A stretch of DNA of 49,632 nucleotides from Candidatus Poribacteria bacterium (GTDB lineage: Bacteria > Poribacteria > WGA-4E > UBA9662), in contig PAQF01000020.1 in assembly GCA_002709695.1 (NCBI GenBank), positions 28,563 through 78,194 on the forward strand, given 5' to 3'. The position numbers and the translations under genes are program-made. Positions 10,407 to 43,879 of this stretch are shown piece after piece. Every line of letters begins with the position of its first letter. Position 1 is the first letter of the stretch. The notes beneath the pieces were generated by a model. That model made no database searches. It was not told the DNA's origin and was given only the letters and a program-made list of their open reading frames with translations.

Positions 10407-11135
10407 TTACTCCCAAGCTTTGATACTCGCCCAGCAGGAAGCAAGCTTACCAAAATGATCGACAGCTTTTGGCAAACCTGCATTTTCACCTTCGCCGTCT
10501 CCCAATTCAATATCATCAATATACGCTACTAACACATTTGGATGGTCCCATCCCAAAAAAATCCAACCTAGATCGGGGTTGACACCACCTTTACCTCCTT
10601 CACCTCGAAATTCAAAGCCATTGACAACTTGTTTGCCATCAATGTAGAAATCATAGCTCTTCTTTTTAAAATCAAAAACCAGCCGAAAATGATACCATTG
10701 ACCCAATTTACCCTTGAACACTTCTGGGAAACCAGCATTTCCTTTATTGGCAGTGATGACGCCACCCTCCTTAATATCAATTTTGGCTGCAGCGCCCCAC
10801 TTCACAGCATCTCCACCAATATAAATCATTACAGGCCCTGGACCATCATCCTTCCTCGCGAATAATGAAACGTATTGAGTACTGGCATTGGAACCTTTAA
10901 ATTTTCTCAATACCATTGTTTTTTCGGAGACAAAAACACTTTTGCCCACATCACCATGCTTGACTTTACTCTGAATTTGGCAGGTCTTTTGGTTCATAGC
11001 GATTTCCCAGTCATCCTGGCCTACAATATCACCATTCTTAAACTTGTCAAAATTTTCGGTATACCAAGCGGCACCAAGAGCTTGGAAATTAAGAACTCCA
11101 ACAACCAGACTAATTATTAAAGTATACTTTGCCAT
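10407..11135 (-). CDS. Secreted LamG-like protein with C-terminal WASIK tag
   Basis: A 242-residue exported protein. The ATG at 11135 is chosen because GGGAGAAAAA lies just upstream and a signal peptide follows (MAKYTLIISLVVGVL, cut near LGA-AW). The frame extends 26 codons upstream, but without ribosome site. The body (WYTENFDKFKNGDIVGQDDWE to AYIDDIELGDGE) is a concanavalin-like jelly roll: WYHFRLVFDF, DFYIDGKQV and the final DDIEL strand are typical of LamG_3-like domains. The last residues read FGKLASCWASIKAWE, matching the tail found on the other LamG-like proteins in this window. Likely a periplasmic or surface carbohydrate-binding protein. Confidence 0.8.
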   Translation of the reverse strand: MAKYTLIISLVVGVLNFQALGAAWYTENFDKFKNGDIVGQDDWEIAMNQKTCQIQSKVKHGDVGKSVFVSEKTMVLRKFKGSNASTQYVSLFARKDDGPGPVMIYIGGDAVKWGAAAKIDIKEGGVITANKGNAGFPEVFKGKLGQWYHFRLVFDFKKKSYDFYIDGKQVVNGFEFRGEGGKGGVNPDLGWIFLGWDHPNVLVAYIDDIELGDGEGENAGLPKAVDHFGKLASCWASIKAWE

Positions 11136-11843
11136 TTTTTCTCCCTGACTTATTTTTAACTCGGCAGATAAAAATATGACAATGATGCTAATCAATATAG
11201 CTGGAGTTGTCAAGGTTAATTTAGAACAATTTCTTGCATAGTGTAGTGAGCAAAACGAAACGAGGCAACCAGAATTTACCTCCCATCACGTGCTCAAAAA
11301 CAGCTTCTATAAATTAAGTGTGTTGGTATCAAATTGTCCTAAATCACAAATACACAAATAAAAAAGATCTATGCTCTACGTTCTTTTAATGTGTTGATTT
11401 TGATCAAAGTAATTCACTGCTGGTCATTCATCCAATAGAACCTTAGGTATAGCAAGGTCATCATCTTCATATCCCATCGCATGATATAGGAACTAAACCT
11501 CACAATTAGTGGAACTGGTCAGAACAAGTAATTCTGTAACACCACCTTCGTATACTAATTGTCCTCTTTAAACAATCAACACGTGTCTAATAGCTCGAAC
11601 AGTAAGCTTCTTGAAGAAATAATTAATCCACTTCTGCATGAAGTGCGTCATAAAACTGACCCAATACTACATTATGATGAAGCACAAGCATTAGGGTAAT
11701 AAGAATGCCAGAAGCACTGAAAGCAATCGAGGAATATTATTATCTAAAACAGAAAAGCTACGAACATCTAAAAAAAGCAAAAATCCATCTGGCAAAGACT
11801 CAGTCCTGAGTTGGGAGACTAGTGATGCACTAGAAGAAAAAGT
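11136..11843. other. Spacer with two tiny reading frames
   Basis: About 700 bases. Two adjacent plus-strand frames look coding in character: 11583-11699 (GTG start, 38 residues, containing PLLHEVRHKTDPILHYDEAQ) and 11705-11809 (ATG start, 34 residues, MPEALKAIEEYYYLKQKSYE...). Both are charged and helical and would join into one protein of about 73 residues after a single frameshift. I do not recognise it. It could be a broken small gene or one decayed by a frameshift. Confidence 0.3.
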
Positions 11844-12239
11844 TTATATTTCGGTTTTGGAAAGACTACTATTTACAAATTGGTTTCTGATTAAAGTGAT
11901 AATTTTCTTGCTGTCGCGTAGTCTTAACCCATCAATTAAATAATTTTCTCGAAGGATTTCAATTTTGAGGCAAGATTGACGAGCTAGTTTTTGCCAAAAG
12001 GTTTGCTCAATTGACAGAAAAATTATTTGGTTAAAGTCCAATTCAAAACGAACCATTGCATAGGGAAGGATACCAATGGTTGCTTCGGCTAAGACCAATA
12101 ACTTGTGCTTGGTAACCAAGACAAACTCAGGTTGAAATAATTGTGACCCTCCAATGGCACAGACAACGATAGATCTAGGATCAATTTGCTCAGTGGCTAA
12201 CTTCTGAATCTTTTCTGGTAAAAGTGCAAATTCAGCCAT
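11844..12239 (-). CDS. Small PH-like domain protein
   Basis: A 131-residue cytoplasmic protein. The pattern of short beta strands (SIVVCAIGGSQLF, EFVLVTKHKLLVLAE, ILPYAMVRFELDFNQIIFLSIE, CLKIEILRENYLIDGL) followed by a last amphipathic helix (DSKKIITLIRNQF) fits a bacterial pleckstrin-homology-like (YokE-type) domain. Such domains occur in proteins of unclear role, often at membranes. No catalytic motif. Neighbours give no clue. Weak ribosome site. Confidence 0.6.
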   Translation of the reverse strand: MAEFALLPEKIQKLATEQIDPRSIVVCAIGGSQLFQPEFVLVTKHKLLVLAEATIGILPYAMVRFELDFNQIIFLSIEQTFWQKLARQSCLKIEILRENYLIDGLRLRDSKKIITLIRNQFVNSSLSKTEI

Positions 12240-12699
12240 GCTATCTATAAATTCCCTTTGTATTATGCCAACCTACTTGCAAAGGGTTGTCCTCAATTCC
12301 TACATATCAATTTATAACAACACCCCTGACCTTAATCTGTTAGTTTGTGAGGTATATTATGTGCCTTTTGTTTTATAATCATAATAGGAATGCTGTTATT
12401 CAAAATCAATAAGCTTAAGTTACTATGTATTACCAAACAGGGAAAATCTTTATTACCTCTTGTATTAAACGGTCTAAGGTCAAGCGTATTAGACCTAATT
12501 TTGATGAGCTACAAAAGATTGATTTTAGCAACAAAAAAACAGCAGAAATGTAGGATAAAATTGTGATATCCGCTATCATTATCTACACCAATCTACCCTT
12601 AATTTGTTTCATATCACCTCAAGATATTGCCCAAAAAGCTGACTGTGTCAGTGATCTCAGCCACATTAACTTCAGCAAAAACATTAAGCCAAAGTATCC
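12240..12699. other. Gene-free spacer with interrupted frame
   Basis: 460 bases upstream of the large membrane protein. A frame from ATG 12425 runs 42 codons to a TAG at 12551-12553 and then stays open a further 49 codons to 12703. Without a ribosome site and with AT-rich composition it may be chance or a decayed gene. Confidence 0.25.
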
Positions 12700-14832
12700 A
12701 TGAAAATTGTACAAGACCCTAATCAACCCTCTTGCAAATTGCTGAAAATAACTCTTAAACATTTACTAGTTGTTCTTCTCTTACTCGTCCATCTGTTGCC
12801 AATTTGGATTGTTAAGTATTTCCCAACCCAAGATGGCCCCAGTCACATCTACAACGCACAAGTGTTCAAAGAATATCACGATCATAACAATTTCCGCATC
12901 CGGGATGTCTACCAACTAAACTGGGCCCCCTTCCCTAATTGGACAACCCACCTGCTGATGGCCATACTAATGCACATTTTCTCGCCTTTGGTTTGCGAGA
13001 AAATCGTACTGAGCCTGTGTGTGCTCGGTCTACCACTGGCTTTGTTTTACTTTCTAAGAGTCATTGATCACAACAAAGTTATTTTTAGCCTAGTCGGCGT
13101 CATATATTCTTATCATTACTTGCTGATGATGGGATTTTACAATTTCTCTATCAGTGTACCTATATTCTTCTGGACACTAGGCTATTGGTGGAAACACAGA
13201 AACAATATAATTCCCAAAGGGCTGACTGGCAACCAGCCCCTAGTTGGTTTTTACTTGCTACTGATGCTTACCTACTTTAGTCATTTTCAGTCTTTTTTTC
13301 TGTTGGTTATTTCGATCTCAGTCTTTACAGGTTTATTATTTTTGTTAGAATTGCAAACCGATAAAACAAGACCTAATTTCATCAGTCGGCTGCAACCGCT
13401 GATCTATTTCGCAACCTACATGCTCCCAGTCTATTTCGTAGCATTGACCTACTACCTTTCCAAAACACAGGGCTATGGTCGCAATTACCGAAAATTATCT
13501 TGGCTAAATGAATATTTTTTCAACTTGAAATCTCTGGTCTATTTTCGAGACGACCATATTTTAATCGGCCGATTTTTGTTCGTTATCTTAACCATACTAT
13601 TGTTTTACAGTTTATGGGAAAGAAGCATTGAATTTGTCAGTAAATCCTCAGCTAAAAACAGAATCAGATTCAAATCGACTGACCTATTCCTAATTATGTT
13701 TTTGATCTTAACCTTGATTTATTATATTTCGCCCAATAATATCCAATCAGGTGGGGGCTGGATTAACGATCGAGTTCATATCTATCTTGTTCTGATGTTA
13801 CTACCATTTTTGAAAACGCCGGCCCATCATTACCTTCAATACATTTTGATTACGAGTTTAGTTGGTCTCTCACTTTGGCATCTAGCTTATACAGCTCATG
13901 ACAATTTCTTTTTAGATCAGGAAATCACCGAGATGACTCAGAGTACTAATTTAATAACAGAAAACTCGACTTTGGTATTGTATCTTGACAAACATGGTCA
14001 ACAATTCTCAGATACATTAGGTAAAATAGATTATGTCAAACCGTTTCTGCATGTTGGAAGTTACTATTGCTTAGACAATAGAGTAGCTTTACTCCGCAAC
14101 TATGAGGCTGCACTTGATTATTTTCCCATCAACTATCAATATCAAATGGATACCCGTCCTTATTCCGGTCCAAAAACGTCGTATCCACAACGAGCAGATT
14201 ATGTTTTGGCTTGGCGAATGACATCCGATGGCATCAACAAACTGGAGCAAGAAACACTAGGTCCAGACTATAGATCTATCCATACGGCCAAGCGATACAC
14301 CTTATACTATCTGAACCCAAATACGCTGGACGTAAATTGGTGGACAAACACACTAAACATCAATCGGAAAGAATTAGCCTTCGATTTTCATCCTCAAGAC
14401 GCCACGGCTGCTCTCAACTCCATTTCAATATCTCCAATTAGCAAGTACGAAAACCAAGCGCATCAATACGGCTGGTTGACAGAAGCCAAACTAACGTCCA
14501 GTTCTCAGAACGAACAACCAAACCCTGTGTTTCAGAACGCAATTACGAATACGACAAAAACTGATGGTGTCTTTAAAGTAGTTCTACCAAATGGCCGTTA
14601 TCGCGTTACTTGCTTCTTCTGGGTTGATAATGAAAATCCAATTTCCTTAATTGCCAACAGTGAAAAGGTAATTCAGAACCTAAGACAAACAGACACTACA
14701 AAGGTTATCCAAAAAGTATACACTATCACTATCACCAACCAAGAATTAATACAAATTGTTTATACAATAGGCCAAATCTGGAGTTGGTGTGGGTTTAAGA
14801 TCCAGCCAATCGGCAATCCACCCGATGCCTGA
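12700..14832 (+). CDS. Multi-pass membrane protein (GT-C-like) with C-terminal FDF/YGW sugar-binding-like domain
   Basis: A 710-residue protein. Residues about 17-430 hold ten or more hydrophobic helices. A first extracytoplasmic loop reads FPTQDGPSHIYNAQVF, an acidic-histidine loop of the kind seen in GT-C glycosyltransferases that use lipid-linked sugars; I infer this role from layout only. Residues about 430-558 are soluble. From 559 a separate domain begins: LAFDFHP (FDF 561-563), YGW at 590-592 and LPNGRYRV at 631-638. These recall the galactose-binding-like domain on some polysaccharide lyases and esterases (FDFG, YGW and PNG.Y.V). No ribosome site precedes the ATG at 12700. Monocistronic. 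Confidence 0.7.
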   Translation: MKIVQDPNQPSCKLLKITLKHLLVVLLLLVHLLPIWIVKYFPTQDGPSHIYNAQVFKEYHDHNNFRIRDVYQLNWAPFPNWTTHLLMAILMHIFSPLVCEKIVLSLCVLGLPLALFYFLRVIDHNKVIFSLVGVIYSYHYLLMMGFYNFSISVPIFFWTLGYWWKHRNNIIPKGLTGNQPLVGFYLLLMLTYFSHFQSFFLLVISISVFTGLLFLLELQTDKTRPNFISRLQPLIYFATYMLPVYFVALTYYLSKTQGYGRNYRKLSWLNEYFFNLKSLVYFRDDHILIGRFLFVILTILLFYSLWERSIEFVSKSSAKNRIRFKSTDLFLIMFLILTLIYYISPNNIQSGGGWINDRVHIYLVLMLLPFLKTPAHHYLQYILITSLVGLSLWHLAYTAHDNFFLDQEITEMTQSTNLITENSTLVLYLDKHGQQFSDTLGKIDYVKPFLHVGSYYCLDNRVALLRNYEAALDYFPINYQYQMDTRPYSGPKTSYPQRADYVLAWRMTSDGINKLEQETLGPDYRSIHTAKRYTLYYLNPNTLDVNWWTNTLNINRKELAFDFHPQDATAALNSISISPISKYENQAHQYGWLTEAKLTSSSQNEQPNPVFQNAITNTTKTDGVFKVVLPNGRYRVTCFFWVDNENPISLIANSEKVIQNLRQTDTTKVIQKVYTITITNQELIQIVYTIGQIWSWCGFKIQPIGNPPDA

Positions 14833-15526
14833 GTCTTTATTAAGCACCTTATAGGATTCAGACCAAAGACAATCCACACTTCTGGATGAAGTGGTTAAGA
14901 TAATTGACTATTAAGACTGCTGTCAACCAAAATAGATTTAATAAAAAAACTAGATTCTACTGAACTCTATTTTTTTGATCCTTCTAAAAAGCTTTTATAC
15001 ACTAAATAAAATATAATGGTAATTTACGCCAGTAAACATTCCAAGAATCGTCCATATTTCAACAATGTAATACTCTCGCCCAGACTAATCTTATAAATAG
15101 TCTATGAGGCATACTGAAGACGCACAACTCAAATCTATAAGGAGACAGAAACAGGACAAACCAGATTCAGTGGGGCATCTTATGTGAAGATAACGGCAGA
15201 TACACGCATATCAAAATATTCCCACAAAAGGAAAAGACATCGGCGACTATACTAAGGAGTTTACCCGCCGTGAATGAAAAGAGTCTTAGAATCTGCTACG
15301 ACATACTGGTAATAAGATACCGCCCAGCAGATGACTCTTGCAACAGAACAATCAGACAAGGAACATTATAATAATAACAAATTACGAGTGCCCATCTCGC
15401 CTTCCCAGACTATACTTATCAGAATGGTCGAATGTGTTTCCATGTTCGGCAATAACCACACAGTCCTCCAACCAAGAGGGATTACCGCAAAGAAAGATTT
15501 CATGTGAGGATGTTGATCTTACGAGG
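14833..15526. other. Spacer with coding debris
   Basis: 694 bases with no supported gene. Around 15180-15290 several frames look protein-like for 15-40 codons (for instance GKDIGDYTKEFTRRE, ending at about 15278) but are broken. A 60-codon frame without a start runs to about 15371. I cannot name the ancestor. The phrase near 15256 recurs at about 5785. Confidence 0.3.
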
Positions 15527-16321
15527 TTATTTTTCCTTGATAAACGCCCATTTAGTGGACAATTTATCACTGACTTGAACAGCAAGGGAACCTAATTTCA
15601 AGCTTTTTATCTCTTTTTCCGTTAGGACCGCACCATAGATTCTAGATTCGTGTATCAAACAATCCAGATCTCCAGGACCTCCACCGACGTTACCGTGTCG
15701 CTTGCCCCACATTACTTCAGCATCATCTTCCGTCCAAGTGATAGTTTGCCCCTTTTCATAACCACCAATTTTCTTGCCGTTTCGATATATTTTGATTTCA
15801 GTTGCTTTCGCTTCCTTATAAGATATCGCAATCATAATTTCAATTCCTGTCTTGGTTTCTTTAAAACCAGGTTTAGGATCATCTGTCCGTCTAAAATGAC
15901 TACTACCTGGCATCCACTGGTTGGGCTGCCTCTCTGCGTAGACGATGGAATCAAAATGATCTCCGCTAATCTTGTCAATGCACAGAATTGACCCTTTGGT
16001 TACGCTTATATCTTGCATAGTTGCCCAAGAAACCAATGTTTTATCAGTAATATCTGGTCCTTTGTATTCACCAACAGTAATAGCCCATTTTCCTGCATCA
16101 ACGTCTAAAGCACCTTTGGAAATTTTAGCACCCATCAGCTTTACATCAGGGAAATTTCCTGTTAAATCTTTCAGTTCCACCCCTTTCTCAAAGGTCCAAT
16201 GTCCAACCAGTTTATCTTTCTTAACTCCGGGGTTAGCAGCTTGTGGAAATAACGGATATAAAACTAGCACTAACAGCAGAAAAGTAACAAAGGAACGCAA
16301 ATAATAACCTAATTTATTCAT
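15527..16321 (-). CDS. Secreted LamG-like protein with C-terminal tag
   Basis: A 264-residue exported protein. A signal peptide or anchor covers residues 1-29 (MNKLGYYLRSFVTFLLLVLV, cut near QAA-NP). The body begins KLVGHWTFEKGVELKDLTG, the classic opening of LamG_3/concanavalin-like domains, and closes with CLIHESRIYGAVLTEKEIKSL. The tail SDKLSTKWAFIKEK matches the tag on the other LamG-like proteins. The ATG at 16321 has GGAG ten bases upstream. Likely binds carbohydrate outside the cytoplasm. It lies downstream of a DUF6785-type membrane protein on the same strand, with a palindrome in between. Confidence 0.85.
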   Translation of the reverse strand: MNKLGYYLRSFVTFLLLVLVLYPLFPQAANPGVKKDKLVGHWTFEKGVELKDLTGNFPDVKLMGAKISKGALDVDAGKWAITVGEYKGPDITDKTLVSWATMQDISVTKGSILCIDKISGDHFDSIVYAERQPNQWMPGSSHFRRTDDPKPGFKETKTGIEIMIAISYKEAKATEIKIYRNGKKIGGYEKGQTITWTEDDAEVMWGKRHGNVGGGPGDLDCLIHESRIYGAVLTEKEIKSLKLGSLAVQVSDKLSTKWAFIKEK

Positions 16322-16558
16322 CTTTATCTCACTCCATCATTCAATTCAAAAAACACTGTGTCTGGTTCGGTTGCAGTAGTTTTACCCAGCAACCACTATA
16401 CAATATATTTTCCACAGTCTAGTCTAAAAAATTAATCGTGTCAACATTCTTACCTCCGAAAATGTAAAAAAAACATACTCGACGCTCGGGTGAAGCCAAA
16501 AGGGGGATTGTTCAAAATAAAGTATCTTTTACTGAATGAACTTCCCGAGAACAAAATT

Positions 16559-16602
16559 TCATATGTACAGAAACTCTTAATTATTTGCTTCTGTACATAT
16601 GA
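16559..16602. repeat. Perfect 14-bp inverted repeat with 16-base loop
   Basis: TCATATGTACAGAA (16559-16572) and its reverse complement TTCTGTACATATGA (16589-16602) flank ACTCTTAATTATTTGC. No U-run follows on either strand, so it is not a standard terminator. The outer 8-mers AGTATCTT (16521-16528) and AAGATACT (about 16670-16677) are also inverted, so a short decayed mobile element with nested arms is possible. It sits just after the stop of the DUF6785-type gene. Confidence 0.6.
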
Positions 16603-16684
16603 GGGACATTTAGTAGCAATATCTATTTTAAAGATAGCATTGTTGATAACTATCAAAAGCGTCGTCCTCAAGATACTTGGTTTC

Positions 16685-18571: not shown

Positions 18572-18852
18572 TTTTTATACTATATAAGGCTTTAAACCTA
18601 TCAATTCTTGTTAGCCACACCAAGAGAGAATCCCTGGCACCTCGTGTTTTCTTGTTGGATGTTTCCCATAAAAACTAACTTTTACTTTTTTGGCCAGTTT
18701 CTTATCACATCTATTTCTAGGCCGCAGAGAAATTGTTATTGAGGAACTAAACAGTGACGAGAACAATACTTCAATTATGTCAGTTTGAGTAGTTGGGTAA
18801 CAAGTTACCAGTTTAGCTTAAAACCCTACCATGGCTTTTCACATCTCAGTAA
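18572..18852. other. Spacer upstream of DUF6785-type gene
   Basis: About 280 bases that should hold the promoter of 16685-18571. No clear element seen. Confidence 0.3.
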
Positions 18853-22843: not shown

Positions 22844-23272
22844 ATCTATATAGATTCAAAGTGGGATTTAATTTTAATAATGATGGGGTTTTGAACATGA
22901 ATAAACATAATAACAACAAATTCAATATCTCTTTTTAATCCAGAAATAATTGAACCATGTATTGTCCCAGCTGATTTCCTAGTTCTTTAAACAGCTTAGG
23001 CTAATAGTAGCACAGTCGAAAATACCCTTCAAACCCAAATGTTTACTTGCCTGCATTAGAGATTAGGCTAGATATAAGCAAGATATTAATGCCGTTGTTG
23101 CTTTGCATTTCGATGTAGAGAAGACCCATCAATTATGATGACAAAAGGCAAGCCCAAGCTATTAATCGACATTAAGGTTTAACAGCTACAGTCATCGAGT
23201 TAATGTTGTTGAACGTTTCCGATATTCAGGATATCCTTGAACAGACTCAATATCACTAAAAGGACGAATGTT
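22844..23272. other. Spacer between glpD and PhyH gene
   Basis: About 430 bases between divergent genes. A segment at about 23026-23060 (TTCAAACCCAAATGTTTACTTG ... ) resembles one at about 32850-32885 (TTCAAACCCAGTTGTTTACTTG ...), pointing to an old dispersed repeat. Fragments around 23090-23130 look like decayed coding sequence. Confidence 0.35.
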
Positions 23273-23944
23273 ATGCCAAATCTGCTATCTCCAAATCAGG
23301 TTGACCAATACAATCAGGAAGGTTATCTTCTGATGTCAGGACTGATTCCAAATTCAATTTTAGCTAAGGCTGAAAAAGAAATGTGGCATTGTTCAGATGT
23401 AAAAGCGGATGAGCCTGAGACTTGGATCAACGGTACTACCGCAGCAAACTACCTGAATGATGACATCGTTGCTTGTTATACTGATGAATTTATTATGGTT
23501 GCAGCTCAATTGGCAGGAGACGATCCGACGACATATAGTAAACCCAAAGAAGCTTACTCAATCAACGTCTTTCCCAGTGTAGGAGAGTGGAATTGGCCAA
23601 GTCCACATATTGATCACTCGATCAAGAAAGATGGTTATAAAACATTTCCTCGAGCCTTCCGGATTGCAGCCATGACCTATCTCAGTGATGTAGGAGAACG
23701 TGGAGGTGGTACAATCGTCTGGCCCAGATCCCATCACCGCATCTGGGCTCTAGCTAAAAGCAATCCTGCACATTACGAATACATGTGGGTCTTGGGTAAT
23801 GACATTCACCAAGCCGATCTCGGCATGCCAATGGAATTAATGCCTAACCGCGGTGATGTTTTGTTTTACCATTTCCTCTGTGCACATTCCGGCAGTAAAA
23901 ATACGAATAGTCAACCACGTTTTGCACTCAACACAAAGTGGTGA
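23273..23944 (+). CDS. PhyH-family Fe(II)/2-oxoglutarate dioxygenase
   Basis: A 223-residue PhyH protein. I start it at the ATG at 23273 (MPNLLSPNQVDQYNQEGYLL) rather than a TTG 36 bases upstream, because the fold begins there and AAAGGAC lies nearby. Iron ligands are H112 and D114 in PSPHIDHS and H205 in CAHSGSKN; R216 (QPRFALN) fits 2-oxoglutarate. The GGGTIVWPRSHHRIW strand is typical. It ends abruptly after FALNTKW, slightly short of the usual C-terminus. Substrate unknown. Confidence 0.9.
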   Translation: MPNLLSPNQVDQYNQEGYLLMSGLIPNSILAKAEKEMWHCSDVKADEPETWINGTTAANYLNDDIVACYTDEFIMVAAQLAGDDPTTYSKPKEAYSINVFPSVGEWNWPSPHIDHSIKKDGYKTFPRAFRIAAMTYLSDVGERGGGTIVWPRSHHRIWALAKSNPAHYEYMWVLGNDIHQADLGMPMELMPNRGDVLFYHFLCAHSGSKNTNSQPRFALNTKW

Positions 23945-26256: not shown

Positions 26257-27144
26257 CTAAGCATTCTTATAACTTGGTTTCTCGCCATACCTCCAAGGCA
26301 GTAGTTGCCCATCGTCGTGATCTGTGGCCATCCGAAGGTCTTCGGATGGTGGAAAGAATTCAAGTCGGTCTAGGCCCAAATTACGTAGAGCGCAACTCTC
26401 AACCGGAGATAAATCTTCACTTCGACAACGATCGAAACGCATTGGGACTTTTAAGCGCACTTGACTATTACGGATAAACCTTGGCTTTCGCAACAAATTT
26501 TGAGAGGTAGTATGTAACACCTGAGGATATATAAGGTAAACAGTTCCCACTCTGCCTATAGCTGGTATCCCGACATGACATTGCTGGGCTACGTTATGGC
26601 TTGTTCTCAATTGATAGGCGGATAAACCCTGTGGATTATCTAGAAAGTGTCGTAGAATATGGGGGATACTATCCGGAGCAATATAGGTTCCCCCTCCATG
26701 AAGGTCGACATCAGTGAAAAGCATTAGGATAAACAATCCTGCCTCTGGGCTATCGATGAATTGATTAAAGTCGCCGTCTACGTGCCATCCGCCTTCACGC
26801 TCAATGGGTTCTGTCCAAGGTTGATCGCTACCCAGACTGAAATTTACTACAAATGTATTGTTAACCGTAAACGGCTGTTGAATACGTTCTTCTCCACCTA
26901 CCAACTGGCAGATAACTGCCCAAAGTTTGGGTGAAAATTGACTCAGCGGTAACTCTTTTATTTTAGTCATATGCTGACCTAGAAAGCAGTGGGGCTGTGG
27001 CCAAGTGGCGGAGTCTTTCAAATCAACTCCTGTCTGCTGGCAAGCATCTTCCACCCATTCGTGCGCGACTTCGGCTGAAAAACAATCCTCTAGCACAATA
27101 TAGTTGTGATCAATGAAATTTTGTACCTGTCGCCTGTTCAGCAT
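26257..27144 (-). CDS. PhyH-family Fe(II)/2-oxoglutarate dioxygenase
   Basis: A 295-residue PhyH protein. Iron ligands H121 and D123 in GGWHVDGDFNQF, distal H211 in QVLHTTSQN and R222 (KPRFIRN). GGGTYIAPDSIPHILRHF is a variant of the usual GS-H segment. The C-terminal 60 residues carry a tail rich in arginine and acid residues (DHDDGQLLPW) that is not part of the fold. It lies upstream of the arylsulfatase K-like gene on the same strand with a 216-base gap, so shared transcription is possible but unproven. Weak ribosome site. Confidence 0.91.
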   Translation of the reverse strand: MLNRRQVQNFIDHNYIVLEDCFSAEVAHEWVEDACQQTGVDLKDSATWPQPHCFLGQHMTKIKELPLSQFSPKLWAVICQLVGGEERIQQPFTVNNTFVVNFSLGSDQPWTEPIEREGGWHVDGDFNQFIDSPEAGLFILMLFTDVDLHGGGTYIAPDSIPHILRHFLDNPQGLSAYQLRTSHNVAQQCHVGIPAIGRVGTVYLIYPQVLHTTSQNLLRKPRFIRNSQVRLKVPMRFDRCRSEDLSPVESCALRNLGLDRLEFFPPSEDLRMATDHDDGQLLPWRYGEKPSYKNA

Positions 27145-29026: not shown

Positions 29027-29854
29027 TTAATTGATTGGGTAAAACCGATAAATCTGCTGGGACCTTTCCGGAAATTGCTGCCAGACAGTGTCGGAAATGC
29101 CGCAGTTGCGCCTTTCAGTGGCACTTTGGTTACCCAGCACATTGTGTAAACGATGGAAATAAACCATGGCAGTCATAGGACGCACCTGGTCAGTATAATT
29201 AGGCATAGCTCGATGCCAACACCGCATGTCCCGCACCACCACGGAACCAGCCGGCATAACCATCCGGACAGATGGTAGTGTCGTCCCTCTTTCCTCGCTG
29301 CACACATGGTAGTCTCTGAACAAAACTTCATCTTCAGTTTCAGGAATGGTCACTGGATCTACAATTAGATGCGAGCCAGGCCAAATTTCGGTGCATCCGT
29401 TTTCCAATGTAAAATCGATCAACGGAATATTGACCACAATTCTGGTTACAGGCAAGGCCATACCCAGTTCGGGGAACATATGCCCTCCGTCTCGGTGAAT
29501 CCACTGCTTTTCAGCATTGTTCCAGTACCTAGATTCACGTCGAGTTTCATTACAACCATAGGGTAGAAAGGAAAAGAATTTCGGGCCCATGGCTGACTCT
29601 ATAATTTGCAGGGCAAACGGATTATCAATGATGCGAGGGTCGAGAAAGGGGCCATGCAGAAAATGATCGCGCTGCTCCTTCCCTTCTGGTAGCGACGCTT
29701 TATCTTCAAATGCTTCTCTAACCTCTTCCATAAAGCTACAGGGCAAGACCTGTTCAAAGATGACGTAACCAATTTCTGACAGCCTCTGGCAGGCCAATTC
29801 TAAACTTTTCGGAGAGAGTTCCCCTCGTTGCTGTTCTTCTACTGTTATTTCCAT
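29027..29854 (-). CDS. PhyH-family Fe(II)/2-oxoglutarate dioxygenase
   Basis: A 275-residue PhyH protein. I prefer the ATG at 29854 (MEITVEEQQRGELSPKS), which has GGGAGCC six bases upstream; the frame extends to a TTG at 29893 that has only a weak site. Iron ligands are H120 and D122 in WIHRDGGHMF and H214 in CWHRAMPN; R225 (VRPMTAM) suits 2-oxoglutarate. The H-R-D-G-G motif and GCTEIWPGSHLI are family-typical. Substrate unknown. It is transcribed toward the amylase-like fragment. Confidence 0.92.
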   Translation of the reverse strand: MEITVEEQQRGELSPKSLELACQRLSEIGYVIFEQVLPCSFMEEVREAFEDKASLPEGKEQRDHFLHGPFLDPRIIDNPFALQIIESAMGPKFFSFLPYGCNETRRESRYWNNAEKQWIHRDGGHMFPELGMALPVTRIVVNIPLIDFTLENGCTEIWPGSHLIVDPVTIPETEDEVLFRDYHVCSEERGTTLPSVRMVMPAGSVVVRDMRCWHRAMPNYTDQVRPMTAMVYFHRLHNVLGNQSATERRNCGISDTVWQQFPERSQQIYRFYPIN

Positions 29855-30436
29855 ACTTGGCTCCCATACCTCACGTACTTTGCTTAGTTTCAAATTTCCG
29901 CTTGGCTACCAACTTGATGCTGCCACTCCGAATTAGACTGAGGTTCAACTTTAAGCTAACTTCAGGTCAAAGCTAGAATACCAATAGTATAGTTCGTCGT
30001 TATGTTGGATTGCTTGGCAATATTTGTAGTTGCTCACTGACAATTCAGAATTAGCCCACAATCCCATTCCATTGTATCAGAGACGGCAAAATGTATCAAT
30101 TTCAGCTTTCGTCAACCCACAGTCTTACAAAAACCCCAAAGGTTTCTAGTATCAGGCTGTATCTACATTCCAAGCAAAGACCATACGTTTTCATCTTAGC
30201 GAAACTTCGACTCTCAAAATGTTAACTTCGGTATCCTATCACGACTGTAGCAGGATAAAGTCGCAGGGTTCTACTAGGAATTTTTGCTGGCGTCTCAACT
30301 GTCAATCCAACAAGTCACCCAGAGCATGTTTAAATACGGATAAGTTGCCAACAAAACAGGATCTCTGGCACCTAAATCGCAATTGAGTTTTGAAAGTGAG
30401 AATCTAGCTCCGTCGTTGAACACTGAAAGAAGATAG
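29855..30436. other. Gene-free spacer
   Basis: About 580 bases upstream of the PhyH gene with no intact frame. It leads into the dockerin-like debris that follows and is probably part of the same decayed gene. Confidence 0.35.
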
Positions 30437-30598
30437 TTATTTGTTAAAGCACCGCGGGATGTGAATGGTGATGGTAACGTAGATCTCTTCGAACGAGTTC
30501 TGGCAGCTAACCATTTCGAACAGAGACAAGTACAAGCTGCTGTTGTAGCTTGTGTCCCACGATCTAAAAATATTTGTTATAGCCCAATTTTGGCCTGA
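30437..30598 (+). pseudogene. Dockerin-like calcium-binding repeat remnant
   Basis: A start-less frame after a TAG (30434-30436) reads DVNGDGNVDLFERVLAANHF, the calcium-loop and helix of a type I dockerin or related EF-hand repeat (D1, N3, D5, D9 pattern). It ends at a TGA (30596-30598) after 30 unrelated codons. No start codon or ribosome site. It is best read as the last piece of a lost secreted protein. Its end overlaps the stop of the opposing PhyH gene by 35 bases. Confidence 0.6.
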
Positions 30599-31460
30599 GG
30601 TTGACAGGTTTATTACTAGTGAGTGGTTCAACATTAAAACTATCTGAGACTTGGTACTCAAATGAGTGTTCATCTTTACCATATGAACACTTTTTCCGCT
30701 CCTCAATAGCATAAAGGATCAAACGGATTCTATCCTCTACCCAATTGGAGTTGATTGAATAGCCCGGTCTAACACCTTCCTTGATCATCCAAGGGATAGA
30801 TTGAAACTCATAGTATATTGTCCGTCGTAGTTGATCAGAGGTATTCTGATGTGAACCGTGAACGAGGCGGACATTATGTATCAGAATATCTCCCGCTTTC
30901 ATCGGCACCGATTCCAGCCCTAGATAGTTGAACCCTTGCATAGCAATCTGTTGGGAAGTTTCTCTCTTGTAGTGGCTTCCAGGAGCAGCCAACAAGCAAC
31001 CATTTCCAGTGGTAGCATCATCCAGATAAACATCAACGTTAAAAGCCAGATGTGCGTCAGATGTTCGCAAATCAGCTGGATCACAGTCAGCATGTACAGG
31101 TACAATCCTGCCATTACCAGGTATTTTGAACACTAGGGCTTCAGCTTCGCAGAGAAAATAATCACCTAGCAAGGCATGTACGATTCTTAATATTTCTGGG
31201 TGTCCCAATAGGCAAAGCAAGGAATTAGGTGAGGTTGACGACTTAGGAAAGATGTATTGAACCCGGTGAAAAATGGTTTCACTTGTTTCCGTATCCAAGT
31301 CAGCAAAGTAGTCAATTTCGTCATCAACATCATGAAAAGGGGAATCGACTATTTTCTGAGTGTCAGCTTGAATGGTTTCCAATTCTTGAGTCTTAATTAT
31401 ATTGGCTAATTTGACAAAGCCATCTCGATGAAAAGAATCGACTTTTTCCTCAACATTCAT
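30564..31460 (-). CDS. PhyH-family Fe(II)/2-oxoglutarate dioxygenase
   Basis: A 298-residue PhyH protein. Iron ligands H123 and D125 in VPVHADCDP, distal H201 in LVHGSHQN, and R212 or R213 (QLRRTIYYEF). The insert before the first ligand (residues 40-75, DDEIDYFADLDTE) is acidic and unlike the other PhyH copies. The tail after 230 is lysine-rich and polar. ATG at 31460 follows AGGAGTTTTTT. It ends over the dockerin-like debris. Substrate unknown. Confidence 0.93.
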   Translation of the reverse strand: MNVEEKVDSFHRDGFVKLANIIKTQELETIQADTQKIVDSPFHDVDDEIDYFADLDTETSETIFHRVQYIFPKSSTSPNSLLCLLGHPEILRIVHALLGDYFLCEAEALVFKIPGNGRIVPVHADCDPADLRTSDAHLAFNVDVYLDDATTGNGCLLAAPGSHYKRETSQQIAMQGFNYLGLESVPMKAGDILIHNVRLVHGSHQNTSDQLRRTIYYEFQSIPWMIKEGVRPGYSINSNWVEDRIRLILYAIEERKKCSYGKDEHSFEYQVSDSFNVEPLTSNKPVNLRPKLGYNKYF

Positions 31461-31932: not shown

Positions 31933-32739
31933 TTAAATTCCCTTTAGTTTAGCCCATACTGTAGTAATTTTGCCTGTGACTTGAACCAATAAGTTGTTGG
32001 ACTTAATCTCAAAGTTCTGTTTTGCCTCTGCAGGCGTCAGACCTCGATTATAAATCCGAACTTCATCAATCAGTCCGTTAAAATGACGCATGTTAAGTGC
32101 ATCACCGATATGCAATGGTTCTTCGTTTTGTGATAAATCACCTTTGACAGGTTGGTCTACGAGCACTTCACCATCCAGATAAAGTATTCCTTTTTTCCCG
32201 TTATAAGTTAAGATCACATGATGCCAATCTTGATTATCATAATTTGGTAAACCTATCTTACGTGTGTCTTTTGGAACCAAGGTTACCGAACGAAATCCAA
32301 TATCTGTTGGATTTCTGGTATCTCTAACCCAAACACCATAACCAGAATTATCTCCTAAGGATTGTCCTTTACTAACTGGCCTAGGGTATTCATTGTCACC
32401 ACTCTCGCCTTTGAGCAAAAACCAGAATTCAATTGTAACTTCTTTTCTTAGGTCTAAACTAACATGATGTGGGATTTCCACCAGCCCTTTTTTCCCGTCA
32501 AACGACAACGCTTGACCAAATTTACCTTTGACATTTTTCGGTCCACCTTTAATGGTGCCATGATTCTTCGACCAGATGTCGTTCACAACTTTTCCCTTAA
32601 TGGTTGCTTGGTCGAAAGACCAAAATCCAACGAGACCTTTTGTCACTATTTCAGGTGGTATAACTGGCCGACTATCGACTGTGCTAAAAGCGGTGACCAC
32701 TAAAAACAAAACAATGTAGGAAAAGGGCTTTGCCATCAT
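31933..32739 (-). CDS. Secreted LamG_3 protein with C-terminal tag
   Basis: A 268-residue exported protein. The signal peptide is MMAKPFSYIVLFLVVTAFS, cut near the STVDS region. The body is a textbook LamG_3 (concanavalin-like) domain: GLVGFWSFDQ, NHGTIKGGPK, FGQALSFDGKKGLVEIPHHVSLDL, VTIEFWFLLKG, WHHVILTYNGKKGILYLDGEV and GLIDEVRIYNRGLTPAEA. The tail TGKITTVWAKLKGI matches the C-terminal tag shared by the other LamG-like proteins. ATG has GGGAGAAT upstream. Likely glycan binding outside the cytoplasm. Confidence 0.93.
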   Translation of the reverse strand: MMAKPFSYIVLFLVVTAFSTVDSRPVIPPEIVTKGLVGFWSFDQATIKGKVVNDIWSKNHGTIKGGPKNVKGKFGQALSFDGKKGLVEIPHHVSLDLRKEVTIEFWFLLKGESGDNEYPRPVSKGQSLGDNSGYGVWVRDTRNPTDIGFRSVTLVPKDTRKIGLPNYDNQDWHHVILTYNGKKGILYLDGEVLVDQPVKGDLSQNEEPLHIGDALNMRHFNGLIDEVRIYNRGLTPAEAKQNFEIKSNNLLVQVTGKITTVWAKLKGI

Positions 32740-34920: not shown

Positions 34921-35826
34921 TTACAGGTTTTTACCGATAGTTGACCTCAGAAGTGAATAACGACGGACAAAGGCCTGCAGTTGAGGCAAGCTCGCCACTT
35001 TCTCCGGCTGGCGGCTACGGACAGTAATAGGCTCCACTCGGTAGTGATTCTTCAGACCATCGTAGCCTTGCCGCTGCTGCTCCGTCTGCCTTTGGAACTG
35101 AGGAGAGGCTACATATCGCAGGTCTACACTCCAGCGTACATTGCTACTAGTATTGAGCTTACTAGCGTGACAGGTTAAATTTGAGAACAGAAGAATATCA
35201 CCTTGTTTCATCGGTAGAGCCACTGGCGTCCCCCTTTGTTCTACCTCTTCCAAGGTATGCACTTTATTATCCTCTTCCCTTTGGCCTTTTAACAGACTCC
35301 AGTTGTGGCTACCCGGTATGATGTAGAGACAACCATTGTCCTCGTTAACCTCTACTAGTGGCACCCATAAACTGACTACATGGAGATGTTGGGTCATCTG
35401 ACCATAATATTGGCTATCTTGATGCCAAGGAAAAACAGTTCCTTGATTCTGTGGTAACTTGAGCCTAGTAACGTAACTACCGGTCCAAGAAATTTCGGGA
35501 CCAAGCAACGATTCTAGGCGATCCAAGATAGCTGGATGTCTAATTAAGTGGAACAGTTCTGGACAATCGAATGCTCGTGCCAAGTCCCACAAACTAGCCT
35601 TCAACTCAGCTTGCTGGTTGATTAGAACCAAGCGGCGCTCAAACGGCTCACCTTCAAACAGGCAAGATATCTTGCCTTCCTGATAGAGCTGGCTGGCATA
35701 CCTGTCCACCAATACCATGATCAAGGTACATGCAGAGGCTAATTCTGGTATCTTGAGGGCCTGCCGTTGGATCAGATAGCCCTGATCCCAATATGAGGCC
35801 ACTTCTGACGGTTTTAGGTGTGTCAT
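34921..35826 (-). CDS. PhyH-family Fe(II)/2-oxoglutarate dioxygenase
   Basis: A 301-residue PhyH protein. Iron ligands H135 and D137 in PWHQDSQYYG, distal H220 in TCHASKLN, and R231 (VRWSVDLR). The long stretch before the first ligand contains SLWDLARAFDCPELFHLIRHPAIL and NGCLYIIPGSHNW is family-typical. It starts 11 bases after the stop of the SDR dehydrogenase gene (36623 to 35838), with a good AGAGGATC site, so they form an operon and probably act on successive intermediates. Confidence 0.94.
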   Translation of the reverse strand: MTHLKPSEVASYWDQGYLIQRQALKIPELASACTLIMVLVDRYASQLYQEGKISCLFEGEPFERRLVLINQQAELKASLWDLARAFDCPELFHLIRHPAILDRLESLLGPEISWTGSYVTRLKLPQNQGTVFPWHQDSQYYGQMTQHLHVVSLWVPLVEVNEDNGCLYIIPGSHNWSLLKGQREEDNKVHTLEEVEQRGTPVALPMKQGDILLFSNLTCHASKLNTSSNVRWSVDLRYVASPQFQRQTEQQRQGYDGLKNHYRVEPITVRSRQPEKVASLPQLQAFVRRYSLLRSTIGKNL

Positions 35827-35837
35827 TGATCCTCTGA

Positions 35838-39260: not shown

Positions 39261-39683
39261 CCCTCTTAAATGGTTCTCCTATGAGGATTAGAAATTCTAT
39301 ACAGTTATAAACTGTATCAGGATAAAACAATAAAGTAATGCTAAAGTGTTTTAACGATAAATCTGGAGCAGATTACCTAAAATAGCAGGCTTATCCCAAG
39401 AACGAAAGGATATTCTGCAAAATGGCTAATGTGCAAACTAATATCTAGTTCTTAGCCAAAGATTACTGTCATATTATAGAGGCATTTTTTGTCTGCAACC
39501 GTTTTTCAACTAACGTTTCTATTATCTGATTCTCTATACAGTCTGTTTCATACCAATTGACAAAATTAAGTTTGACTTCATTCTCGATAGAAGTTAATTA
39601 AACGTGAGTCCCAACAGCATAACGGTTTTACTCAAAAAATTAACTACCACTGGAATCTGAGCTTTTTAACTACCTTTTACCCT
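39261..39683. other. Spacer with short hairpin
   Basis: 423 bases. An 8-bp inverted repeat ATACAGTT (39299-39306) and AACTGTAT (39310-39317) with a 3-base loop lies 38 bases after the membrane protein stop. It has no U-run, so it is only a weak terminator candidate. Nothing else seen. Confidence 0.4.
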
Positions 39684-40559
39684 ATGAATAAATCTTACTA
39701 TTCATTTATTTGTCTTAGTGTTTTCGTTCCCATCTATTTCTTTCTCTCTGCTCCACTTGTTTCCAACTCTGAACAACAGAAAACTAAAACTAAGAACTTA
39801 CAAAGGGATCAAATTACAACCTTAATCGAAAAAGCTATAAATCTTGGCGTGCCTCTCTACAATTCAGGTTCTCATTCCGCCTGTAGAGACGTTTACAATA
39901 TCACATTGCAAGCGATATCGGGCTTTACTGAAGGAATTGTGAGTCAAAATTTGATTACCAATGCTATAACGGAAACAGAATTACGAGACCCCAAAAATGG
40001 TGCCTGGTTACTCAGGCACATACTTGATGAAATCTATTTTGCTGTTAAAGAAGGAACGAGTATTAAAGATAACAAAATTGTGTTTGATTTTTCCGGCCAA
40101 TCACCATTTGAATGGTTTTCAGTCAACGATAATGTTATGGGTGGTATTTCAAAAGGCCAAGTTGAACGAACGAAACAAGAGACGATGAAGTTTTTGGGTC
40201 GGCTATCCCTAAAGAACAATGGAGGATTCAGTTCTGTTCGAAGCCAAATACCTGATTTCACCCTGGCGGGTTATGACGGATTAATGCTCAAAATACGCGG
40301 TGATGATCGATACTATTCAGTATTAGTGACGACCTTAGAACGTGGGAGAACATGGCAAACCAAATTTAAAACAAGTACAAAATGGCAAATAGTCAAAGTC
40401 CCTTTCAAGAAAATGCAGATGTCAGTTATGGGTTGGCGCCCCAATGTCTCTCCAAAAATTACGGGTAACAGGATCCGTGCTATTGGTTTCATTATTGCTG
40501 ATAAGAATGAAACTCCTTTTACATTGGAAGTTGATTGGATTAAAGCCTACATTGACTAA
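39684..40559 (+). CDS. CIA30-domain secreted protein
   Basis: A 291-residue exported protein. The signal peptide is residues 1-30 (SYYSFICLSVFVPIYFFLSA). Residues about 132-291 form a CIA30 (NDUFAF1-like) domain, a galactose-binding-like jelly roll: WFSVNDNVMGGISKG, FLGRLSLKNNGGFSSVRSQI, YDGLMLKIRGDDRYY and WQIVKVPFKKMQ are all family landmarks. The middle (residues 30-130) is helical with two conserved-looking cysteine or charged stretches. In bacteria the domain's role is unknown. Neighbours give no help. ATG at 39684 has no ribosome site. Confidence 0.88.
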   Translation: MNKSYYSFICLSVFVPIYFFLSAPLVSNSEQQKTKTKNLQRDQITTLIEKAINLGVPLYNSGSHSACRDVYNITLQAISGFTEGIVSQNLITNAITETELRDPKNGAWLLRHILDEIYFAVKEGTSIKDNKIVFDFSGQSPFEWFSVNDNVMGGISKGQVERTKQETMKFLGRLSLKNNGGFSSVRSQIPDFTLAGYDGLMLKIRGDDRYYSVLVTTLERGRTWQTKFKTSTKWQIVKVPFKKMQMSVMGWRPNVSPKITGNRIRAIGFIIADKNETPFTLEVDWIKAYID

Positions 40560-40769
40560 AGACTAAAATTAATAGATACAATTTACGTAAAAAAGATTTT
40601 CATCTCAATATGACACAAGTTGACCTGAAAAATATGACACATTTGGGCCTTTCGCAGGTTTTCCTTTAAGAACAGAGCATACGAAGTAGAAGAAAAAGCC
40701 AATTAACCGACACCACCCTCTTGATATATATGGTATGGATACTCCTGCCCTACCATAAAGTCACACGTC

Positions 40770-41971
40770 AAATACTTTCACTCGCGTCATCCCGGACGTA
40801 GTACCCCCCCACAGCCATTTATGACCCAACGGCTACACTACCACTATCACTGGTAAGATCTACGATGGCCGATGCGTGGACAATGGCCATGGTTGGGTCA
40901 GCCAAGATACTCCTTCTTGGAGCAATCCAGCCAAGAAAGTGGGTGAAAAACGCTGCGCATTGCCAAGGAGCGAAAACAACCCGAAACCTGCCACCGAATG
41001 CGCCGAAGTGCCGGATGAAGTTTATAAAAACTACCATGCCGCCAGCAACGGTATCGAGATTATGAGCAAATGCGCTACTGGCAATCCACCATGGTTTGTG
41101 GGTGTTGGCTTCAACCTGCCACACTTGCCCTCCGCCGCACCTAAGACTGGAATCTTTACGAACCCAATACTATCGAGATCAACCCTGTGCAACAACACCC
41201 TGAGGGCACCCCCTTTTCACCTGGAAAAATTCGTGGGAATTGCGCAACTATTCCGATGCTCCAAAGAAAGGCCCTATCCCGGTCGACTTCCAGCGCCGTC
41301 TGATCCATGGTTACTGCGCCTGGATTAGCTTCGCCGATGCACAGATTGGTCGCCTGCTTGACCATCTTGACCGTCTCGAAGAAACCAACAACACCATCGT
41401 CTGCCTTTGGGGCGACCACGGGCACCTAGGAGACCATGACATGTTCCGCAAACACACCAACTACGAGCAAGCTACCCGCTCGCCCCTGATCCTGTCCGTT
41501 CCCGGCATCTGCCCCGAAGGCACCTTCACCAACGCACTCACCGATTTTGTAGACATCTACCCGACCCTCTGCAATCTGCCTGGCATTGCACTTCGCCCCG
41601 AGTTGAAAGGGACCAGCCAGTATCCCCACCGGCGTAACAAAAAGAATGTGATGGGTTACGCCTATCGAGACCAACGCTATCGTTATGTGGAGTGGGAGCA
41701 GAAGAAATTCCGCGAAGGTGAAACGACTAGCCCCGTTGTTCTGCAAGAGCTTTATGGCTATGAGGAAGACCCGATCGAACGGCGCAATCCTGCCTCCGAT
41801 CCGGCCTATGCGGATCAACTGGAACGAATGGTAGACTTGGCCTGCGCTGCTCGTACAGAAACGCAGGATTCAGAGGCGCAAGCCATGATCATGATTACAG
41901 CGTTGGAAAAAGAAGTAATAGCGGACAGTGATTGTAGGAAAAAGTGCCAAAGGTGGATAATAACTAAATAA
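40770..41971 (+). pseudogene. Iduronate-sulfatase-like gene, N-terminus lost, frameshifted
   Basis: A broken type I sulfatase of the iduronate-2-sulfatase group. One frame (40825-41147) reads GKIYDGR, GHGWVSQ, PDEVYKNYHAA and WFVGVGFNLPHLP. A net -1 shift near 41147 leads to WNLYEPNTIEINPVQQ, and another near 41210-41220 leads to the last frame, in which LRNYSDAPKKGP, LWGDHGHLGDHDMFRKHTNYE and SVPGICPEGTF continue to 41971. Upstream (about 40778-40820) RVIPDVV debris ends at a stop. The catalytic CxPSR region is missing. Its GC is far above that of neighbours (about 67% in one 60-base sample), so it was probably acquired and then decayed. Confidence 0.85.
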
Positions 41972-42212
41972 GGATTTGTTAATGGTGTAGCGACTTACAG
42001 AAAGGATGACACAAGTTTAGATTAGTCGGAATGAATTGATCGCCTTGTCGCTACTCTTAGAAGTAACCACAGGCAGCACCAACAATCCTAATCTACTTTA
42101 TGGGAAACAGATAGAAACGATTTAAGATAAACGGTTGAATCAAGGCTGTAGGTTGACCTGTTGCCTAAAGGAAGACTGTTTTGGTCACCTACTAGCCTGA
42201 CTCTATTGATCA
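41972..42212. other. Spacer
   Basis: 240 bases between the sulfatase remnant and a leftward LamG gene. Nothing recognised. Confidence 0.3.
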
Positions 42213-42986
42213 CTACCAACTAGATTTAATGTTTGCCCATTTGGTAGTCAGCTTGCTTTTGTAATCAACCGCTGTGGTAGGTGCTAAAGCATCTTCCATA
42301 GCTTTTTTAACTTCATCAGCAGTAAACGCCACACTCCAGATTTTTAATTCATCTACCGCTCCTTTGAAGAAGGTCCCGCCACCTGAATTTTCTGCTACTG
42401 ACATACCAAACTCAGGGAAGTCTATTCTGACATCACCACCAGCAGCAGCTTTGCCATCAACTTTTCCATCGATATACAGTACAGCTTCCTTCTTAGTTTG
42501 TGTGGCAACATAGTAGTACCACTTAGATTCAAATTCTTTATACGTGCTTATGATCCCCAATTCTGCACTATCGGTAGCAAAATAGTGGCCCAGTAAGTTA
42601 CCGCCACGATTAAAGGTAATGTGTGGACGCCCTCCACCGTTTTTCCTGTACAGCAAGTCCATTCTACTTCCACTGGAGAACTTTTTGCTAGGTTTAAACC
42701 AAAACTCAATGGTCATAGCTGCTTTAGGTACATCGAATTTTAGAGGGTCGAATTTTGCGGCTCCTTCATTGAATTCTAAGGCTTTGCCTACAACACCTGC
42801 TACCGATTTCGCCTTGCCTGCTACTTTACCCTTGAATTTATTGGGTGATACGTCTTTCACGTCTGTTCCATCACCTTCAAAAGGCAGATGGATGATCAAA
42901 TCCTTCTTGGGATCTGCGGCATCAACCGCCAATACCATGATTAAAATCAAGATTACACTAAAACTAAGAATTTTTTTTAACTTCAT
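42213..42986 (-). CDS. Secreted LamG protein, tandem copy 1, with C-terminal tag
   Basis: A 257-residue exported protein with a signal peptide (MKLKKILSFSVILILIMVLA, cut near VDA-AD). The LamG_3 domain is clear: DLIIHLPFEGDGTDVKDVSPN, GVVGKALEFNEGAAKF, MTIEFWFKPSKKF, WYYYVATQTKKEAVLYIDGKV and GAVDELKIWSVAFTADEV. It is closely similar to the next gene upstream, a tandem duplicate. The tail KSKLTTKWANIKSSW carries the shared C-terminal tag. Its ATG has GGAGAATATAAG upstream. Likely glycan binding at the cell surface or in the periplasm. Confidence 0.92.
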   Translation of the reverse strand: MKLKKILSFSVILILIMVLAVDAADPKKDLIIHLPFEGDGTDVKDVSPNKFKGKVAGKAKSVAGVVGKALEFNEGAAKFDPLKFDVPKAAMTIEFWFKPSKKFSSGSRMDLLYRKNGGGRPHITFNRGGNLLGHYFATDSAELGIISTYKEFESKWYYYVATQTKKEAVLYIDGKVDGKAAAGGDVRIDFPEFGMSVAENSGGGTFFKGAVDELKIWSVAFTADEVKKAMEDALAPTTAVDYKSKLTTKWANIKSSW

Positions 42987-43126
42987 CTTATATTCTCCTT
43001 ATAGATTGAAAAAATAAACATAAAAAATAGTGGCTAGCATTGTCCCTTCAGAAACCAGAGAAATTCAAACCAGTAGTTAGCTGATTGACACTAATCACTA
43101 TTGGTGAATTCAACATTTTAGAGCTA

Positions 43127-43879
43127 TCAATCAGATTTGATAGCGGCCCATTTAGTAGCCAACCTGTGGTATGGTTCTACAGCTAGCGCCGCTTCCATAG
43201 CTTTTTCGACTTCATCATCGGTGAATGCTACACTCCAGATTTTTAATTCATCTACCGCTCCTTTGAAGAAGGTCCCGCCACCTGAATTTTCTGCTACTGA
43301 CATACCAAACGCAGCGAAGTCTATTCTGATATCACCACCAGCGTCAGCCCTGCCATTAACTTTCCCATCGATATACACTACAGCTTCCTTCTTAGTTTGT
43401 GTAGCAACGTAGTAATACCATTGTTTTTTAAATGTGTCTTCCTCAATTCTGACTTCTAATTCTACCGCCTGCGTAGCAAAATAATGACCGAATATAACAC
43501 CACCCCGACAGAAAGTTATATGCGGTCGCCCACCACCGTTTTTCCTGTACAGTAGATCTATTCTACCAGGACATTTAATTTCCTGGCTGGGCTTAAACCA
43601 AAACTCAATGGTCATACCATCAATCTCTGGATCGAAGTCTAGAGGGTCGAATTTTGCGGCTCCTTCATTGAATTCTAGGGCTTTGCCTACAACACCTTCT
43701 ACCGATTTAGCTTTGCCTGCTACTTCACCCTCGAATTTATTGGGCGATACGTCTTTCACGCCTTTTCCATCACCTTCAAAAGGTAGATGGATGATCAGAT
43801 CTTTATTGGGATTTGGGGCGGCATCCACCAATACCACAATTAGAGCTAGCATTATGCTCAGACTAAGAATTTTTTTCAT
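43127..43879 (-). CDS. Secreted LamG protein, tandem copy 2, with C-terminal tag
   Basis: A 250-residue exported protein; the signal peptide is MKKILSLSIMLALIVVLVDA. It matches copy 1 closely (I estimate about three quarters of residues) through DLIIHLPFEGDGKGVKDVSP, GKALEFNEGAAKFDPL, WYYYVATQTKKEAVVYIDGK and GAVDELKIWSVAFTDDEV. The differences cluster in the middle loop (SQEIKCPGRIDLL and the extra cysteine in FCRGG). The tail YHRLATKWAAIKSD keeps the tag though the stretch before it is shorter. The two genes lie on one strand with a 140-base gap and are a recent tandem duplication. Confidence 0.93.
   Translation of the reverse strand: MKKILSLSIMLALIVVLVDAAPNPNKDLIIHLPFEGDGKGVKDVSPNKFEGEVAGKAKSVEGVVGKALEFNEGAAKFDPLDFDPEIDGMTIEFWFKPSQEIKCPGRIDLLYRKNGGGRPHITFCRGGVIFGHYFATQAVELEVRIEEDTFKKQWYYYVATQTKKEAVVYIDGKVNGRADAGGDIRIDFAAFGMSVAENSGGGTFFKGAVDELKIWSVAFTDDEVEKAMEAALAVEPYHRLATKWAAIKSD

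Follow-up and report, generated by a model that had tools for sequence, protein, structure and literature searches.

Five tailed proteins in the window

The window, a 49,632-nucleotide stretch from a Candidatus Poribacteria bacterium, encodes five exported proteins that end in closely similar short tails (Table 1). The tails quoted in the first-pass annotation of this DNA are present at the ends of all five ORFs, with two or three residues beyond the final Lys: KLASCWASIK-AWE, KLSTKWAFIK-EK, KITTVWAKLK-GI, KLTTKWANIK-SSW, and RLATKWAAIK-SD for the proteins at 10407, 15527, 31933, 42213, and 43127, respectively. The same annotation described all five as LamG-like, which holds for the four that lie above the Pfam Laminin_G_3 cut-off and whose matches stop approximately 25–30 residues before the C-terminus; the 10407 protein is only weakly so (E=0.0018, below the cut-off), and the ATG at 11135 is a better start for it, yielding a clean signal peptide. 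The tag is absent from all other ORFs of the window, with exactly five tag HMM matches in the region. Three further proteins (39684-40559, 44141-44593, and 46942-47868) appear by eye to be exported yet are untagged, and the tag therefore marks a subset of exported proteins.

Table 1. Tagged proteins of the window and the position of the tag in each.
Feature	Position	Strand	Basis or remark
Exported carrier, weakly jelly-roll/LamG-like, refined ATG start 11135	10407..11135	-	Signal peptide MAKYTLIISLVVGVLNFQALGAA
Tag of the 10407 protein, AVDHFGKLASCWASIK, then AWE-stop	10419..10466	-	HMM E=0.029
Exported LamG carrier	15527..16321	-	ORF, Pfam Laminin_G_3
Tag of the 15527 protein, AVQVSDKLSTKWAFIK, then EK-stop	15536..15583	-	HMM E=2.4e-5
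Exported LamG carrier	31933..32739	-	Laminin_G_3 3e-20
Tag of the 31933 protein, LVQVTGKITTVWAKLK, then GI-stop	31942..31989	-	HMM E=2e-4
Exported LamG carrier	42213..42986	-	Pfam; AlphaFold model
Tag of the 42213 protein, AVDYKSKLTTKWANIK, then SSW-stop	42225..42272	-	HMM E=2.5e-7; separate C-terminal helix in model
Exported LamG carrier, paralogue of the 42213 protein (73% identity)	43127..43879	-	Pfam
Tag of the 43127 protein, AVEPYHRLATKWAAIK, then SD-stop	43136..43183	-	HMM E=4.7e-4

Elsewhere in the window, ten genes are PhyH-like by eye (471-1145, 1380-2141, 6124-6945, 7130-8026, 8110-8859, 23237-23944, 26257-27144, 29027-29893, 30564-31460, and 34921-35826); an abundance of phytanoyl-CoA dioxygenase (PhyH) family genes is a known trait of Poribacteria. 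A sulfatase-like coding sequence at 40876-41971 is split over two overlapping frames, reflecting a frameshift, decay, or an assembly error, and the ORF at 48005-49546, with a glycine-rich middle and a flagellin-type C-terminal end by eye, may encode a flagellin into which a surface domain has been inserted.

A modular motif at the C-terminus

For the anatomy of the tag, a set of 99 ORFs was collected by applying a loose protein regular expression to the window and to the DNA surrounding the places found by protein and pattern searches. The tag spans approximately 16 residues, A-V-x-P-x-x-K-L-x-T-T-W-G/A-x-I-K, or more fully [LF]-A-V-[DSE]-P-x-x-K-L-[AT]-T-T-W-[GAS]-x-[IL]-K followed by 1–5 residues. 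Thus, the core consensus proposed in the first pass was real but too short, as the motif runs further towards the N-terminus. Numbering the first Lys as 0, the counts among the 99 tags are V(-5) 90, P(-3) 45, K/R(0) 99, L(1) 86, A/T/S(2) 88, T(3) 45, T(4) 43, W(5) 99, G/A/S(6) 98, I/L/V/M(8) 99, and K/R(9) 99; several of these positions are fixed or restricted by the regular expression itself, and the independent evidence for the longer motif therefore comes from V(-5) and P(-3), on which the expression places no restriction. The invariant Trp lies 5–9 residues from the protein end, the final residue is variable, and the logo of the 99 tags displays no conserved Cys, hydrophobic segment, invariant Gly, or GxY. 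The tag is short and basic, with a mean charge of +2.8. Its Leu and Lys codons differ freely among copies, and this synonymous variation indicates that the constraint acts on the protein; an RNA or DNA element was accordingly rejected, the Rfam scan of the window having also returned zero matches.

The AlphaFold model of the 42213 protein (mean pLDDT 82, from 54 sequences) has a finished LamG fold, beyond which residues 245-255, the tag, form a separate short helix with pLDDT of approximately 60-71. L1, W5, and I8 follow an i, i+4, i+7 spacing, and the mean helical hydrophobic moment of the tags is no higher than that of shuffles; the tag may tentatively be read as a helix, the prediction being modest and the secondary structure uncertain. 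The model of a CBM9-type carrier, built from only four sequences, reached a mean pLDDT of 41.5, and a PDB fold search with the 42213 LamG model returned only the common jelly-roll lectin fold, which is uninformative on the tag.

The profile search suggested in the first pass found far more than five copies: a 20-column tag HMM gave 137 matches in the source genome, approximately 128 of them tagged ORFs at E<0.05. With the 42213 protein as query, 89 places were found in the 5.2-Mb genome, and a degenerate DNA pattern of the tag matched 79 times, vs. 4 for the reversed control. The motif is C-terminal in 99/99 regular-expression ORFs and internal in none, finishing 1–5 residues before the stop in 95 of them; among 136 HMM matches checked, the one that was clearly internal was a chance match at E=2. 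Some tags sit on very short ORFs (L047:3633-3719, L053:1-135, L192:2088-2129, and L046:3808-3933), which are probably decayed or frameshifted remnants of tagged genes, or contig edges. Six tagged genes stand in a row at L031 and L178 (G000:C3:90.8-97.7 kb), and in several of their products the body has, towards its C-terminal end, a shared stretch resembling GGGWSMFVG.

The proteins that bear the tag are diverse. Pfam and NCBIfam searches of 112 carriers identified Laminin_G_3 in 68 (~60%), 3-keto-disaccharide hydrolase in 6, CBM9 in 5, and cohesin in 3, along with F5/8 C, HmuY, TolB/DPPIV-type propeller, CBM4_9, DUF3108-like, and metalloprotease domains. The tag could be aligned for 107 carriers; LamG-type bodies account for 63 of these at the threshold used, and the other 44 fall into 23 clusters without mutual similarity detectable by BLAST. 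Mean tag identity is nonetheless equal throughout (0.426 within LamG, 0.431 between LamG and other bodies, and 0.439 among the others), and identity over the 16 residues directly upstream is 0.115 for LamG-LamG pairs and 0.070 for LamG-other pairs. The tag is likewise found on varied bodies in distant Poribacteria. It is thus modular: one motif on many unrelated bodies.

Carriers are exported proteins, a signal peptide being recognized by a crude rule in 104/115 of them (~90%) and 99/115 being SPase I-like; most of those failing the rule either run off a contig or region edge or have a signal peptide visible by eye. Lipoprotein sorting was rejected, as the five flagged lipoboxes were judged false by eye (their Cys lies within the hydrophobic core or borders it), and the Sec signal peptides of the carriers ruled out a cytoplasmic encapsulation peptide of the encapsulin or microcompartment kind.

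Phylum-wide distribution and type IX homologues

In related genomes, to which the first pass had pointed, the tag DNA pattern was found in all 85 Poribacteria genomes searched, representing 22/22 genera, with 19-157 matches per genome against 0-5 for the reversed control. ThiC of the window has its nearest match in a named Candidatus Poribacteria record, at 79% identity. The named Poribacterium gave 116 pattern matches vs. 1 for the control, and 35 named genomes from other phyla gave control-level counts. At E<=0.01, each of five further Poribacteria, the two most distant among them, yielded 94-146 copies by the tag HMM. The HMM found no copy in 39 named genomes from about nine other phyla, an outgroup with members of Bacteroidota, in which type IX secretion is established, nor in 80 Elusimicrobiota genomes. 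The tag is universal among Poribacteria, and the genomes sampled from other phyla lack it, an exclusivity that holds only against the genomes tested, as many phyla, including Latescibacterota and Planctomycetota, lay outside the sampling.

TIGR04183 tails had been described in Poribacteria by Kamke et al. in 2014, who did not find Por secretion genes (PMC3909097). Our survey covered SprA-like, PorU-like, and PorV-family proteins. A SprA-like protein is encoded in 24/24 sampled Poribacteria genomes, nearly always as a single ORF of 2,000-2,300 aa; these proteins match the model in several collinear stretches, below the curated cut-off (165.9 bits vs. a cut-off of 200, E=8e-49, in the source genome). 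Each genome encodes 13-25 PorV/PorQ-family proteins, and matches above the cut-off occur in 24/24; long Peptidase_C25 (PorU-like) proteins are present in 16/16, the best in the source genome scoring 404 bits vs. the PorU cut-off of 420. Loci of these homologues include L197:11090-17590 (G000:C86), L282:3839-9835 (C25), L283:709-6732 (C57), and L284:2259-3263 (C17). The homologues correct the published claim that Poribacteria possess type IX tails but no machinery (PMC3909097), and they widen a system often called Bacteroidota-specific.

Type A CTDs (TIGR04183) occur in 24/24 genomes and on approximately 45 proteins of the source genome. Either tail can occur in two of the body families: a tagged metalloprotease (C81) aligns with a type A CTD protein (C23) over 389 aa (E=2e-29), and cohesin proteins are found with a type A CTD or with the tag. 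No protein carries both, as 0/112 tagged proteins match the type A CTD model of NCBIfam. Approximately 5 of the 45 type A CTD genes lie within 5 kb of tag genes, which is not above a rough expectation of about 8 (compared by hand). In Bacteroidota, separate shuttle proteins read separate CTD types (PMC12618676), and a second tag paired with an expanded PorV family would be sensible on that precedent. As the Bacteroidota sampled have no tag, the link to type IX is one of co-occurrence within a single phylum.

Reading of the tag and comparison with known signals

The first-pass annotation had suggested that the tail might be a signal, not yet described, for sorting, anchoring, or assembly. The C-terminal position, modularity, Sec-exported carriers, and phylum-wide occurrence support this. 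From these properties we strongly infer a sorting or anchoring signal that acts after Sec, and the tag looks like an undescribed cell-surface address label of a whole bacterial phylum. The explanation that we favor, and consider fairly probable, is a phylum-wide sorting or anchoring tag read post-Sec in trans by one shared receptor at the outer membrane. Carriers would leave the cytoplasm by way of a cleavable Sec signal peptide and fold after crossing the inner membrane; their C-terminal tag, being exposed, would then be bound in trans by the shared receptor, which would move the carrier across the outer membrane or fix it to the outer membrane surface. Reading of the tag would thus follow Sec export, and the tag would serve surface delivery or retention. 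The co-occurring partner gene suggested in the first pass did not emerge: in the neighborhoods of tagged genes, no neighbor recurs as an obvious sorting partner, and the recurrent ones are a 102-member family joined by weak similarity (PhyH oxygenases and untagged LamG proteins are probably among its members) and Gfo/Idh-like, sulfatase, DUF6785-like, and SDR genes. The receptor could be a dedicated one, in a separate and undescribed Poribacteria pathway for outer-membrane export or surface attachment that would serve a cargo roughly threefold larger than the type IX CTD set of these cells; we hold this to be a substantial possibility, somewhat short of even. More speculatively, the reader may belong to the type IX machinery, for example as one of the 13-25 PorV-family outer membrane shuttles, a branch of the sorting-tag reading to which we give a distinct minority share of our confidence.

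The strongest competitor, which we nevertheless consider unlikely, is docking after secretion, in which carriers would be exported by another route (e.g., type II) and the tag would plug into a repeated surface scaffold or matrix. Dockerins, which bind cohesins, are the model for such an arrangement, and the cargo is suitable: it consists mostly of small lectin-like or carbohydrate-binding domains (Laminin_G_3, plus CBM9 and F5/8), approximately 130 carriers would suit a coat, and the tag is short, basic, and modelled apart from the body. However, no scaffold protein was identified, and the interchange of tag and type A CTD on a homologous protease body is more in line with a routing signal. 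A degron, for degradation or quality control by a periplasmic C-terminal protease, would be in keeping with a short tag at the extreme C-terminus. C-terminal proteases generally recognize the last residues of a substrate, whereas here the invariant Trp lies inward of a variable final residue and the tag is strongly constrained on about 130 diverse exoproteins, making this reading very improbable.

Even less credible is a processing signal embedded in the membrane, like those of sortase, exosortase, rhombosortase, or myxosortase systems. In occurring throughout a phylum at the C-termini of dozens of exported proteins, the tag does recall MYXO-CTERM in Myxococcota (PMC11980579), but it has no hydrophobic segment, invariant Cys, LPXTG, or PEP motif, only 1–5 residues usually follow it, and the NCBIfam CTERM models are silent on it. 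Finally, the tag could be the last structural element of LamG, inherited with the domain, a possibility that the first pass had named as fatal to its proposal; in its favor, LamG-type bodies make up some 60% of carriers, and the five proteins of the window had all been taken for LamG. The tagged non-LamG proteins refute this reading, their 23 clusters having equal tag identity, and both the model and the early end of the Laminin_G_3 matches place the tag beyond a finished fold; we give it next to no credence.

With a shared sorting tag, a single motif would give access to the surface proteome of a phylum that is sponge-associated and largely uncultured. At least a hundred or so proteins per genome, many known only as LamG or unknown, would become predictable as one sorted class, and a concrete hunt for the receptor becomes possible.

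Among known C-terminal signals, PEP-CTERM/exosortase, LPXTG/sortase, and GlyGly-CTERM/rhombosortase resemble the tag as short C-terminal homologies on otherwise unrelated exported proteins. In these families, a motif is followed by a transmembrane helix and a basic tail, whereas the tag is a short polar and aromatic motif alone; its closeness to the stop in 95/99 cases and the lack of an NCBIfam match at E<=10 exclude membership. MYXO-CTERM/myxosortase is similar in being universal in one phylum, with dozens of exported carriers per genome, but its tripartite architecture includes an invariant Cys (PMC11980579), and the tag, with neither conserved Cys nor membrane segment, is not a member. Type IX CTDs (type A and the short CTDs of Prevotella intermedia) are, like the tag, C-terminal signals on Sec-exported proteins, and tag genomes encode SprA-, PorU-, and PorV-like homologues and some homologous bodies with either tail. 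These CTDs are beta folds in which Gly motifs B and D are conserved and motif E is basic, the short ones being beta sheets of 43-55 aa and the long ones longer (PMC11969387), whereas the tag, of approximately 16-20 aa, has an invariant Trp and a tentatively predicted helix, without an invariant Gly, GxY, or other CTD motifs. Type A membership in particular is contradicted by the absence of TIGR04183 from all 112 carriers, vs. its presence on about 45 other proteins of the genome. In the functional sense, type IX cargo relies on SprA and a PorV/PorP shuttle for its transport, and homologues of this machinery are encoded in the tag genomes. The statement in the first pass that the tails match no LPXTG, PEP-CTERM, or type IX signal was thus borne out; moreover, no Pfam or NCBIfam model matched the tag peptides at E<=10, and a search of the open-access literature found no paper on such a tag. 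Cohesin-dockerin systems offer a further likeness, as small modules docking varied carbohydrate-binding proteins, and some tagged proteins contain cohesin domains; unlike a dockerin, the tag consists of one short motif and lacks a repeat of the dockerin kind, and a scaffold counterpart was likewise not identified. Lacking the defining features of the families tested, the tag is a member of none of them, yet it behaves like a sorting tag.
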